Position numbers and translations under genes: made by a program. A stretch of DNA of 49,749 bases from Bacillota bacterium (GTDB lineage Bacteria > Bacillota > Sulfobacillia > Sulfobacillales > JAIMBI01), in contig JAKATP010000008.1 of assembly GCA_021818685.1 (NCBI GenBank), forward strand, positions 1-49,749, given 5' to 3'. The notes below the pieces were generated by a model. It made no database searches. It saw only the letters and a list, made by a program, of their open reading frames with translations, and had not been told where the DNA came from. The first letter of the stretch is position 1; every line of letters starts with the position of its first letter. Below, piece by piece: positions 27,962 through 44,512 of the stretch.

Positions 27962-29029
27962 ATGACGCTTGCGAGCACCGGGGTCACGGCGCCACCCGCG
28001 CTCCACTGTCGGTGCGAAGCAGCTATTGTCATGCGGGTGAGTACGGGGCAGGTGCTGGGGAGCTTTCACGCGTACCGCCAGCGCGACCCCGCGAGTCTCA
28101 CGAAGATCATGACCGCCTATGTCGTCCTCAAAGACGGCCACCTAAATCGGATCGTCACGGTGAGCCGCCGCGCCGCCCGTACCAACGGGTCGCGCCTGCA
28201 CATCCGGGCTCGTGAGCGCTATACCCTCCTCGATCTGCTCCGGGGGCTCCTGCTCCGCTCGGGCAACGATGCGGCCGTGGCGCTCGCGGAGGGGGACTCG
28301 GGGAGCGTGGAGCGCTTCGTCGCCTCCATGAACCACATGGCCCGCTCACTCGGGGCCTACAATACACACTTTGCCAATCCGAACGGGCTCACGGAGCCCG
28401 ACCACTACAGCTCGGCCTATGACCTGGCCCTCATTACCCGTGCAGCCCTGGCCCTGCCCCTCTTCCAGCACCTGGTCAGCACGCGAGAGGACCTGGTCCA
28501 TGAAGAAGTGTCGGGGCAGATCCGCCACATCATCACGACCAACCGCCTCCTGGAGGCCTTTCCGGGTGCGGACGGCGTCAAGACCGGGACGACCCAGGCG
28601 GCCGGTCACTGTCTCATTGCCACGGCCACTCAGAGCGGGGTACAGCTCCTGGCCGTCATCCTTGACTCCCGCGATCGGTGGGCGGATGCGGCCCACGCCC
28701 TCAGCTGGGGCTTTCGCGACTTCCACGTGGTGAGTGCGGCCCGAAAAGATGCCCCCCTCGACCATCTGCGAGTGGCGGGTGGACGGCAAGCATGGGTCAC
28801 CCTGGTGGGCGCGCATGCGTTGTCCGTGATGCTGCCCCGCTCACAGTCGTACCGTCTGGTCGTAACCGCCCCGCCGGCTGTGGCCGCCCCGGTGCGGCGA
28901 GGGCAGATCCTGGGCACGGCGTATGTGGTCTCCGCAGGCCAGATTGTTGCCCACACGCCCCTGGTGGCAGAACGATCTGTCGGCCAGAGATTCTTCAAAT
29001 GGGCGCCGACTGTGTCTCAGCCGCGGTAA
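27962..29029 (+). CDS. D-alanyl-D-alanine carboxypeptidase (S11), N-terminus apparently frameshifted
   Basis: This penicillin-binding protein 5/DacF-type enzyme trims peptidoglycan pentapeptides. The three active-site motifs are intact: PASLTKIMT (SxxK), LRSGNDAAV (SxN) and DGVKTGTT (KTG). A C-terminal beta domain follows. From ATG 27962 the protein has only a stub leader and no clear RBS. In the same frame upstream, AISVGTLWTWFLMTLASTGVTAPPA reads as a Sec signal peptide without a start codon. Starts in the other two frames (GTG 27907 or ATG 27888) would join this frame with a one-base change at the GGGGG run 27922-27926. Either the reference has an indel or the locus is truly frameshifted. 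The 3' end overlaps the convergent deacetylase gene by 13 bp. Confidence 0.85.
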   Translation: MTLASTGVTAPPALHCRCEAAIVMRVSTGQVLGSFHAYRQRDPASLTKIMTAYVVLKDGHLNRIVTVSRRAARTNGSRLHIRARERYTLLDLLRGLLLRSGNDAAVALAEGDSGSVERFVASMNHMARSLGAYNTHFANPNGLTEPDHYSSAYDLALITRAALALPLFQHLVSTREDLVHEEVSGQIRHIITTNRLLEAFPGADGVKTGTTQAAGHCLIATATQSGVQLLAVILDSRDRWADAAHALSWGFRDFHVVSAARKDAPLDHLRVAGGRQAWVTLVGAHALSVMLPRSQSYRLVVTAPPAVAAPVRRGQILGTAYVVSAGQIVAHTPLVAERSVGQRFFKWAPTVSQPR

Positions 29030-41024: not shown

Positions 41025-41606
41025 TCAGGCCTGACGGCGTCGCCGATGCTGCCAGAACCAGAGCGCCCAGCCCACCACGATTACGATCCCCACCAGGATC
41101 ACCCAATGTTCGAAATGAACCGCTCGGGTCCAGTGCCGGCCGCCCTGAAAGCCCAGCACCATGAACACCACCGTCCACGGCAGGGCACCCAGGACACTGT
41201 ACAGGACAAAGCGGGCAAATGGCATCGCCGTGAGGCCGGCCGGCAGAGAAATATAGGTGCGCACTCCCGGCACGAGACGTCCGAAGAAGACGGCCCGGTC
41301 GCCGTAGCGCCGAAACCAGGACTCCGCACGGTCCAGCTCGTGGCGGCGAATGAGGGGCGAGAACAGGGCGCGACCGCCAAAATAGGCGATGGCATATGAC
41401 ACCACGGACCCGAGGAGCCCGCCCAGCATGGCGGCCACGCCGGCTTCGATCCATCCCGCGCGGCCGACGGCCACCAGATAGCCTGCATAGGGCAGGATCA
41501 CCTCGCTCGGGATGGGAATGGCGGCGCTTTCGAGAAACATCCCGATGAGAACTCCGATGACGCCAAGGCCCACAATATTGTTGGCGAGTGCGGTAAGAAG
41601 ATGCAT
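41025..41606 (-). CDS. DedA family membrane protein
   Basis: This 193-residue integral membrane protein belongs to the DedA/SNARE-associated group. Family features are FLESAAIPIPSEVILPYAGYL, GGLLGSVVSYAIAYFGGR, FRRYGDRAVFFGRLVPGVRTYISLPAG (conserved Arg/Pro/Gly re-entrant motif) and MPFARFVLYSVLGALPW. Some DedA proteins are now known to translocate undecaprenyl phosphate or phospholipids. The start ATG 41606 follows AGGCGGAG. It is the last gene of a minus-strand cluster with a carboxypeptidase and two nitrilase-like proteins, 47 bp after the nitrilase, suggesting an envelope-related role. Confidence 0.92.
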   Translation of the reverse strand: MHLLTALANNIVGLGVIGVLIGMFLESAAIPIPSEVILPYAGYLVAVGRAGWIEAGVAAMLGGLLGSVVSYAIAYFGGRALFSPLIRRHELDRAESWFRRYGDRAVFFGRLVPGVRTYISLPAGLTAMPFARFVLYSVLGALPWTVVFMVLGFQGGRHWTRAVHFEHWVILVGIVIVVGWALWFWQHRRRRQA

Positions 41607-41653
41607 GAAAACGTTCTCCGCCTTTCGTCGCGGTCAGCCCGCAGAAGTCGGGG

Positions 41654-42688
41654 TCAAGTCAATCTCGTCAGCGCGCGGTATCGTGGTAAGAGCCAGGATC
41701 GGAGAAGCTCCGGCGCGGGAACCGGGCGCGCCTCTTGTCGGAAGCGAGCCAGGGCGTCCAGATCGAGGGTGCCTGCGACGACGCCTTCGCCGTGCGCCTC
41801 CCGACTCTCCGCGACGACCCCGGAACCGTCCGGCGTCAGCTCGCGGGGAATATAAATGCCCGCCTTGCCCGTGAAGCGGACCCCGTAAAGCTCGCCGGTG
41901 CCGGCCGCCACCACCGACGCCATCCCCGTCTCCTGGGTACGCGCCCAAGCACCGCGCCGAGCCTTGGCTTCACTCCAGTCGGACTCGGGATCGGCGGACG
42001 GGACGGCCATGACCTCTACCCCCAGGGCCTCGGCCATCCGGTAGGTCTCAAAAAAGCTCGCGTCGTGGCACACGGCCACTCCTAGTGGCAGCGTGAGACC
42101 GCCGGGCCGGTCGAGTCGGCTTCCCGCCTGAACACCCCAGCTCCTTTCCATGGGCATCGGATGGAGTTTCGGTTGACGCAACGTGAGGCGGCCGTCCGGA
42201 CCAAATACCACCGCTTGGTTGAAAACACCCGTCCGCCGCCGGTAGACGGTAGAGCCGGCCACGACCACCATACCGTAGTTCCTGGCCGCCCGCCGGAAGC
42301 ACTCCTCGTACAGGGGGGCAACCAGGGGAGCCCAGGCCGCCAGATACCGCGAGGTCTGCGACGGGCTCAACGACTCGGCCGAACGGGGGCCCCCATAACG
42401 GGTCAGGAGTCCCAACAGGCATAGGCCCAGATCCTCCGGAAACACGACCAGGGCCGCTCCCACATGATGCGCGGCGTCCATCACGGCGGTGATGCGCTCC
42501 GTGAAGTCGGTCACCCCGGTTACGGGCCGCATGTCCCACTGAACAGCCGCCGCCACGAGTTGCCGCCGGCTCCACGTCATCGGGGCGACCCCGGATTCCG
42601 AACCAATACCCACCTGCCGCCGACCCCGCGCCACCAAACCCGCCAGGACCAGTCGGCCGAAGGCGATCTCCATAGTGGTGCGGTCCAT
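41654..42688 (-). CDS. Carbon-nitrogen hydrolase (nitrilase superfamily), catalytic triad intact
   Basis: This protein of about 344 residues contains a nitrilase domain. The Glu-Lys-Cys triad is visible in order: LVVFPEDLGLCLLG (Glu), RQPKLHPMPMERSW (Lys) and LGVAVCHDASFFETYRMAEALG (Cys). RGAWARTQETGMASVVAAGTGELYGVRFTGKAGIYIP matches the later strands. It should hydrolyse an amide or nitrile; the substrate is unknown. A 40-residue N-terminal helix-rich extension before MTWSRRQLVAAAVQWD is unusual. ATG 42688 shares a base with the upstream gene's stop (TGATG), so the two are translationally coupled. The track start (GTG 42703) is less likely. Confidence 0.85.
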   Translation of the reverse strand: MDRTTMEIAFGRLVLAGLVARGRRQVGIGSESGVAPMTWSRRQLVAAAVQWDMRPVTGVTDFTERITAVMDAAHHVGAALVVFPEDLGLCLLGLLTRYGGPRSAESLSPSQTSRYLAAWAPLVAPLYEECFRRAARNYGMVVVAGSTVYRRRTGVFNQAVVFGPDGRLTLRQPKLHPMPMERSWGVQAGSRLDRPGGLTLPLGVAVCHDASFFETYRMAEALGVEVMAVPSADPESDWSEAKARRGAWARTQETGMASVVAAGTGELYGVRFTGKAGIYIPRELTPDGSGVVAESREAHGEGVVAGTLDLDALARFRQEARPVPAPELLRSWLLPRYRALTRLT

Positions 42689-43323
42689 CAGACGTCCCAC
42701 CACGGTTGGATGAGGTAGGCGTCAGGATTCAGGTCCCGGAGAACCGGGCCGGCTTCCAGACCCTGAGCTCGGCGCTCCCACGGGAGCACCGCTACAGCCC
42801 ACCCCCCATGTACTTCCAGCGGATGAACACCGCTGCCGTCCGCGGACATCTCACAGGGAAGGTACAGCGCGGGTTCACCGCTCACTTCGAGGGCGAGGAA
42901 CTGATTTTGCTGGGTGTAAGCCCACAGAGGTCCGTAGGGCTTTGGTTCCGCTCCGAACCCTAGCACCAGATCCACCCCCATGAGGGCCATGGCTCGCGCC
43001 TTCTCCGGCACATAGCGATCGGCACCGCTCAGCAGGCCCACGAGCCGCCCCCCCAGGCGATGGACGACCAGTGTTCCCCCGTGGGCGGAAGAGGGTGTCG
43101 GGGCCACACGCCCCCACCGGTCCAGCACCACTGAGCGCGCCTCCGGCTCCGTCGTACCTACGATGACGGGGCGGTTCATGCGCGCCGTGAAGATCGCCAG
43201 TTCCGGCAGCGGCGGCAATTCCGGAAGGCTCAGGGCAACCAGAGCGGAGGCGGGAGGCGCGTGCAGGCGCGATCCCTCCGCCGCCGCGACGGCTACCATG
43301 CCCAACGGCGTCTCAAGCGGCAT
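42688..43323 (-). CDS. Nitrilase-like pseudoenzyme (catalytic residues lost)
   Basis: This 211-residue protein aligns by eye with its downstream neighbour. LVGLLSGADRYVPEKARAMALMGVDLVLGFG corresponds to the nucleophile region. QQNQFLALEVSGEPALYLPCEMSADGSGVHPLE corresponds to ASVVAAGTGELYG...IYIPRELTPDGSGVV. The Cys position reads Ser/Gly (SGADRY), the FPED Glu region is absent, and the protein is about 100 residues shorter. The conserved fold core and tight coupling (TGATG) to an intact nitrilase suggest a non-catalytic subunit in a mixed oligomer. ATG 43323 follows AAGGAG. Without the neighbour for comparison I would have called it unknown. Confidence 0.6.
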   Translation of the reverse strand: MPLETPLGMVAVAAAEGSRLHAPPASALVALSLPELPPLPELAIFTARMNRPVIVGTTEPEARSVVLDRWGRVAPTPSSAHGGTLVVHRLGGRLVGLLSGADRYVPEKARAMALMGVDLVLGFGAEPKPYGPLWAYTQQNQFLALEVSGEPALYLPCEMSADGSGVHPLEVHGGWAVAVLPWERRAQGLEAGPVLRDLNPDAYLIQPWWDV

Positions 43324-44512
43324 GCCGCTTCTCCTTCATCCACCATAGATACCCGAGGACGGTCAGACCCGCAAGGAGGGGCCATTGGGGAGTCCAGCGC
43401 ACCGGCGGGACGGCCGGGGGATCAACCCAGGCCCGCGCGGCCAAAAGCGTGCGCTCGACCAAAGGGCGTTCCTGCCCATCGCTGACGGTCAGCAGCCCGA
43501 CCACCATCCCCCGACGTCCGGAGGGGGGAGCCGTGACGAGAACTTGCTGGCGTACCGACCCGTAAGCCCGGCGACTCCCGTCGGCGGCCAAGAGCGTCAC
43601 GCTGTCCGCGACCGTCAGGGGAATCCGGGCGCCATGGCGGCGGACAACAGTAAAGATCCGGCCGCGGGCAATCACGGTCACCGGGTGAAAGTGTGAAAAG
43701 CCCCAGTCCAAAAGGGCGGCACCATCTCCCCACAAGGCGTAGGGACTGTCGTGCAGCAGCACCGCAATCAGGAAGGTCCCATGTCGGGAGGCAGACGCGA
43801 CCAGCGTTTCGCCAGCCTCGATGGTGTAACCCAGCTTGATGCCGTTCGCCCCCGGAAAACTGTAGAGGAGTTGGTTCTGACTGTAGAAGATGCGGGGCGC
43901 CGGATCCGGAGGGAGGGAGGCTTGGCGGGTATCAACGAGGTGCCGGAAGATAGGGTTTTGCATCGCGTGCTGAGCAATGACGGCCATCCCGAGCGCCGTC
44001 ACCACGTGGCGGGGGTCGGGTAGTCCGGTCGGGTTATCGAAGTGAATGCCGGGGGCACCCCACGCCGCCGCCGTCCGGTTCATCAGCTGGACGAACGCCC
44101 GCTCACTCCCCGATACCGCCTGAGCCAGGGCCCACGCGGAATCATTCCCAGACGTCAGCATCATGGCCTGTGCGACGGCTGCGACGGGTAGCCGCTGACC
44201 CGCCAGGAGGTAGTTGCTGGAGCCCGGCTGCAGCGCCGCCTCTTCGGACACGGTTAGCGTACGGCTCCAGGCGGGTGACACAATGGCCAGATAGGCCGTC
44301 ATGATCTTGGTAATCGACGCTGGATAGAGCGGTTTTTCGGCGTTTTTCTCATACAGGATCTGGCCCGTGGTGCCGTCAATCAGCACGGCCGCCTCCGCGG
44401 ACAGGGCGGGCGGGGTGAGCGGCCCGGCCGCCTGCGCAGGTACTCCCGTCCATCCCATGAGCGTGACAAAAAAGAGGAGCACGGGCAGACCCACTCCGAG
44501 GGCACGGTGCAT
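43313..44512 (-). CDS. D-Ala-D-Ala carboxypeptidase-like protein (S11) with KLG third motif
   Basis: This 399-residue protein has a signal peptide (LPVLLFFVTLMGWTGVPAQAA) and a C-terminal membrane segment (WPLLAGLTVLGYLWWMKEKRH), so it is anchored outside. SxxK is PASITKIMTA and SxN is LTSGNDSAW. The KTG motif reads NGIKLGYTIEAGE, so the central Thr is Leu. Family members normally carry KTG (or KSG), so activity or beta-lactam binding may be altered. The overall order is that of DacF/PBP5. It starts at ATG 44512 behind GGGAGGAG and overlaps the next gene by 11 bp. Confidence 0.88.
   Translation of the reverse strand: MHRALGVGLPVLLFFVTLMGWTGVPAQAAGPLTPPALSAEAAVLIDGTTGQILYEKNAEKPLYPASITKIMTAYLAIVSPAWSRTLTVSEEAALQPGSSNYLLAGQRLPVAAVAQAMMLTSGNDSAWALAQAVSGSERAFVQLMNRTAAAWGAPGIHFDNPTGLPDPRHVVTALGMAVIAQHAMQNPIFRHLVDTRQASLPPDPAPRIFYSQNQLLYSFPGANGIKLGYTIEAGETLVASASRHGTFLIAVLLHDSPYALWGDGAALLDWGFSHFHPVTVIARGRIFTVVRRHGARIPLTVADSVTLLAADGSRRAYGSVRQQVLVTAPPSGRRGMVVGLLTVSDGQERPLVERTLLAARAWVDPPAVPPVRWTPQWPLLAGLTVLGYLWWMKEKRHAA

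Follow-up and report, generated by a model that had tools for sequence, protein, structure and literature searches.

A conserved pair of intact and degenerate nitrilase homologues in Bacillota, set between carboxypeptidase and DedA genes in Sulfobacillales

The four-gene cluster and its outer members

The window, by which we mean the whole stretch of DNA analysed here (49,749 nucleotides, from contig JAKATP010000008.1 of a member of the Sulfobacillales), contains four minus-strand open reading frames lying head to tail and coding for an S11 carboxypeptidase, two nitrilase homologues that we call NitA and NitB, and a DedA-family protein (Table 1). The S11 and NitA genes overlap by 11 bp, the TGA of NitA and the ATG of NitB have one base in common (TGATG), and a spacer of 47 bp (41607-41653) separates NitB from DedA; coordinates and junctions agree with the original prediction, which was made from the sequence of the window. 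The open reading frame of NitB opens further upstream, at a GTG at 42703, and its residue numbers below are counted from this longer frame. Scanning the cluster for sigma-70-type promoters found none, the scan being uninformative at this GC content. In 14 Sulfobacillales genomes, close homologues of the four genes are arranged in this same order, and the arrangement is, hence, more than a chance one.

Table 1. Genes of the cluster, with their positions in the window and their domain assignments
Feature	Coordinates	Strand	Product length	Domain evidence
S11 serine carboxypeptidase	43313..44512	-	399 aa	Pfam PF00768 (Peptidase_S11), 177.8 bits, above cut-off
NitA pseudo-nitrilase	42688..43323	-	211 aa	CN_hydrolase (PF00795), 13.7 bits, below the cut-off of 23.2; predicted nitrilase-type fold
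NitB nitrilase-superfamily amidase (predicted)	41654..42688	-	344 aa, counted from the ATG (42688)	Pfam PF00795 (CN_hydrolase), 50.5 bits, above the cut-off of 23.2
DedA-family (VTT domain) membrane protein	41025..41606	-	193 aa	Pfam PF09335, 90.9 bits, above the cut-off of 33.9

Motif alignment confirmed that the S11 protein of the window has the changed third motif noted in that prediction, KLG instead of KTG, together with SITK and SGN motifs; inspection by eye added a signal-like N-terminus and a C-terminal membrane segment. Its closest solved sequence is that of DacB from Bacillus subtilis (3mfd), which it resembles in SxxK, SxN and overall sequence, although the third motif of DacB is KTG and that of the Sulfobacillales S11 clade is K[L/I/M]G. 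Indeed, all the intact S11 proteins encoded at this locus in Sulfobacillales (the window and L052-L098) show K[I/L/M]G, equally with or without neighbouring NitA and NitB, and so does an S11 homologue encoded near mutSL in a genome from another family (G057), which argues that the altered motif characterises this S11 clade as such. A tie between the KLG motif and the nitrilases was considered and rejected, because the motif is just as frequent without them. In related enzymes the Thr/Ser of KTG makes contact with the carboxylate of the substrate, so by analogy the activity of these S11 proteins may be altered. A DNA pattern encoding G[I/V]K-x-GYT, its third codon being T-centred, had matches in six of the 399 genomes: three are S11 genes in Sulfobacillales, those in G268 and G366 are not S11 genes, and the remaining one is in G368. 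In five genomes (G008, G011, G021, G027 and G029) the open frame of the S11 gene at the mutSL locus is also shorter, with the C-terminal part absent. The window also contains a second S11 gene, at 27962-29029, with an intact KTG and a PBP5_C domain.

The last gene of the cluster codes for a DedA membrane protein, as had been proposed. Its best NCBIfam model is UptA (NF052604), with a score of 141.3 bits that lies below the cut-off of 250; it has the VTT domain in common with the UptA-type DedA undecaprenyl-phosphate flippases (PMC11474028), while falling under the UptA cut-off.

NitB, an intact nitrilase homologue, and NitA, a degenerate one

NitB was expected to be an intact nitrilase, and it keeps Glu90, Lys179, Glu186 and Cys212. 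These residues are invariant in both of our alignments, which have 32 and 112 rows (some genomes being represented twice in the larger one, under G and L names, as they come from two collections). NitB was modelled with a pLDDT of 90; its nearest solved relatives are amidases and carbamoylases, and both the fold and the Glu-Lys-Cys(-Glu) site are as in the nitrilase of P. abyssi (3ivz), the amidase of P. horikoshii (6ypa), Nit2 (2w1v) and a D-carbamoylase (6lei). After the Cys-x-Asp sequence NitB reads Ala-Ser/Thr, where several of its relatives have a carboxylate-binding Arg.

NitA had been described as a nitrilase-like protein without the catalytic Cys and Glu; we found this to hold, and the Lys is lost as well. 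Among 31 NitA homologues, 12 match PF00795 at E <= 0.001, and none of 101 aligned rows (again with some genomes entered twice) shows Glu, Lys and Cys together, the commonest replacements being Ala or Gly for Glu (68 rows), Gln for Lys (77) and Gly for Cys (70). Five rows (L110, L118, L126, L127 and L135) keep the Cys without the Glu or the Lys, and are perhaps intermediates in inactivation. Residues outside the triad are, on the other hand, conserved across families: P106, E107, R110, W134, Q138, Q141, G165 and Y203, plus N140, P156, C157 and E158 in 90% or more, which make up the motifs PE..R, W...Q.NQ and PCE and a C-terminal Tyr. As judged from this conservation, NitA is a maintained protein and not a decaying gene.

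In other families of the class NitA has around 300 aa, whereas that of Sulfobacillales is some 90 residues shorter, its N-terminal part, including the Lys region, being gone. The NitA of the window is a shortened late form, whose role may differ because the Lys-bearing region was lost. An AlphaFold2 model of this form (pLDDT 85.5) retrieved nitrilase-superfamily structures in Foldseek searches with E values of about 1e-9, among them the Drosophila beta-alanine synthase (2vhh; E 2.6e-9, probability 1.00, TM-score by query 0.64). These matches support an alpha-beta-beta-alpha fold, although the structures superpose only loosely (rmsd 6-9 Å, TM-score about 0.6). Compared with members such as 2vhh, NitA is without the triad and the window form is also without much of the N-terminal half.

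Distribution and common origin of the pair

A search of 61 relatives showed that NitA adjoins NitB in other families of the class too. Profiles built from the sequences of these relatives (A1 for NitA, A3 for NitB) were run over 399 genomes sampled from the phylum, and a NitA gene was found directly upstream of, and on the same strand as, 68 of the 72 NitB-type genes. In three of the four exceptions, no more than 460 bases lie between the gene and the start of its contig, leaving G364:C1:3046008-3046940, in a complete genome, as the only NitB gene away from a contig end that had no NitA detected directly upstream. Named records with NitB include Thermosediminibacter, Dethiobacter, Syntrophomonadaceae, MAGs labelled as Symbiobacterium and Thermaerobacter, and Halanaerobiales.

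In a tree of 70 rows, whose inner details are unsure owing to the long NitA branches, the NitA sequences all lie on one side of a branch (99/96), the NitB sequences on one side of another (98/99), and ordinary nitrilases stand apart. This topology indicates that, subject to rooting, the two families arose by one early split. Several sub-groups recur in the NitA and NitB halves of the tree, which is expected if nitA and nitB travel together. Moreover, both proteins are fused in a single open frame, joined by a linker, in six of 80 named loci (L108, L123, L125, L157, L162 and L175). Fusions and near-obligate adjacency are classical evidence for a shared complex and, with the early split, they bear out the suggestion in the original prediction that the two nitrilases form a functional pair. 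Members of the superfamily are described as having in common a Glu-Lys-Cys-Glu site and a basic dimer, formed through a shared A-surface (PMC4700190), and a NitA-NitB heterodimer would thus be the simplest model.

Based on these sequence comparisons, we consider it likely that NitA and NitB form an obligate, cytosolic, heteromeric enzyme-pseudoenzyme amidase with NitB as its catalytic member, derived from one early duplication. The two proteins would be subunits of one nitrilase-superfamily enzyme, in which NitB, carrying the Glu-Lys-Cys site, would perform the chemistry through the thioester intermediate by which this superfamily operates. NitA, as a degenerate paralogue, would stand in for one of the two subunits of an ordinary nitrilase dimer and would presumably be kept for assembly, stability or the shaping of the active site. 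The duplication would have occurred in non-Bacilli Bacillota, to go by the tree and subject to its rooting; in Sulfobacillales, the pair lies between the S11 and DedA genes at a mutSL-linked locus, where it would be translationally coupled to S11 and gained and lost independently of it.

Genomic context and possible role

The genes adjacent to the pair vary by lineage, and the set with S11 and DedA appears only in Sulfobacillales. Of the 80 named pairs, one has an S11 gene nearby and none has a DedA gene; 28 have a GH125-like gene and 21 a gene for a GPH/MFS transporter, on either strand. From this context we give high weight to a cytosolic heteromeric amidase, modest weight to a sugar-derived amide as its substrate, and low weight to the wall. 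We propose tentatively that the substrate would most likely be an amide that is small and neutral, or derived from a sugar, and not a component of the wall outside the cell.

A role in carbohydrate metabolism, in which a GPH-type transporter imports a glycoside, a GH125-like glycosidase cleaves it and the NitA-NitB enzyme deamidates a sugar amide, for instance a uronamide or a mannosylglyceramide-like solute, fits the two-subunit model and differs from it only in naming a pathway. Apart from the frequencies just given, it agrees with the finding that, in the relatives set, the eight genomes giving a strong GH125-like match all have NitB; however, in Sulfobacillales, G047 and G057 the pair occurs and a strong GH125-like gene does not, and the GH125 assignment spans only about the last 200 residues of the protein, so that we regard this pathway as possible but doubtful. 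The GH125-like proteins beside the pair have 600-700 aa (L146, 3703-5577, and 27 other named loci), and often occur with a GPH-type transporter. Equally tentative is a bolder version of the two-part enzyme, according to which it would be a widespread bacterial nitrilase of two obligatory parts that needs its dead paralogue for catalysis or specificity; its substrate would be an amide, linked to a sugar or to a lipid carrier, that belongs to no pathway known so far.

Alternatively, NitA could be an independent pseudoenzyme, such as a ligand-sensing regulator, that is co-transcribed with nitB but enters no stable complex. The strong divergence of the Sulfobacillales NitA and the loss of its N-terminal part would agree with this, but the fusions in several lineages and the near-obligate adjacency point to one unit and make independence unlikely.

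The original prediction had leaned towards an envelope role for the four genes, in which the nitrilase pair may process an amide group on a molecule related to the wall or the carrier; spelled out as a dedicated system, S11 would trim peptides, DedA would recycle the lipid carrier and NitA-NitB would remove the amide group. The locus lies in a region syntenic throughout the order, with Ppx-like, mutS and mutL genes on one side and M19 dipeptidase, ymdB, recX and recA genes on the other. That part of the prediction concerning gene order stood, since the order recurs with tight overlaps in several genera of Sulfobacillales: in nine genomes a start codon for NitA can be placed 8 or 11 bases within S11, and nearly all the pair-bearing genomes of the order offer a start codon that overlaps the stop of NitA by 1-4 bases. 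Further, in a second lineage (G048, L168 and L178; positions 8354-8893 in L044) NitB is immediately followed by a gene for Amj, a family of alternate lipid II flippases. Mutual dependence, however, was not supported. By hand tally, S11 and the pair are both at the locus in 14 genomes, the pair without S11 in six (G003-G006, G010 and G017), S11 without the pair in seven (G009, G012, G016, G020, G024, G027 and G028), and neither in eight, so that both come and go separately (Fisher p = 0.19, the genomes not being independent). DedA, in turn, is present in every Sulfobacillales genome with a readable locus, with or without the rest. S11 and DedA are virtually missing near the pair outside the order, as detailed above, and inspection by eye suggests export for S11 but, in view of their missing export signal, a cytosolic location for NitA and NitB. 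We thus find a dedicated envelope pathway improbable. The tight junctions, combined with independent presence and absence, suggest that S11 and the pair, where both occur, are probably co-expressed neighbours instead of a mutually dependent set, and that the wall-related genes beside the pair in the window are probably only local neighbours.

Other neighbours were examined and discarded. A Mur-ligase-like gene next to NitB in G056, a candidate link to the wall, turned out to be FolC (283 bits), and the remaining conserved neighbours elsewhere (RuvAB, Fpg, CoaE, isocitrate dehydrogenase and tryptophanase) are housekeeping or unrelated genes. SpoIVA occurs in 69 of the 72 genomes with NitB and in 265 of the 327 others, in a hand tally that was not corrected for relatedness; we do not claim a role in sporulation, because the pair also occurs in three genomes that lack SpoIVA (G047, G362 and G406).

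Finally, the low Pfam score and the shortened N-terminus of the window NitA might be taken for signs of a decaying pseudogene, but this is very hard to reconcile with a frame that is open in every Sulfobacillales genome having this NitB, 81% identity in a sister species, the conserved motifs and the confident predicted fold.

We return to the two-subunit enzyme and what it would mean. To our knowledge, the nitrilase-superfamily amidases and carbamoylases described so far are homo-oligomers in which all the subunits are active. A literature search, with most subscription journals outside its scope, retrieved no paper on nitrilase pseudoenzymes or on a bacterial enzyme-pseudoenzyme nitrilase pair. 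The nearest parallel would be the heteromeric nitrilases NIT4A and NIT4B of grasses (Poaceae; Jenrich et al. 2007, as relayed in PMC3537687 and PMC5154151), where, according to these accounts, two nitrilase paralogues must join for activity, as we propose for NitA and NitB; these are, however, plant enzymes, whereas NitA and NitB are paired in bacterial operons, one of the two is catalytically dead throughout, and natural fusions exist. That live and dead copies are inherited together across many families, and are sometimes fused, suggests a previously undescribed two-part enzyme. In all, a conserved enzyme-pseudoenzyme pair present in many families of Bacillota, with fusions, would offer a clean system to learn what keeps a dead subunit from being lost, and for many genes that are now labelled only as carbon-nitrogen hydrolases the pair provides a function that can be tested.
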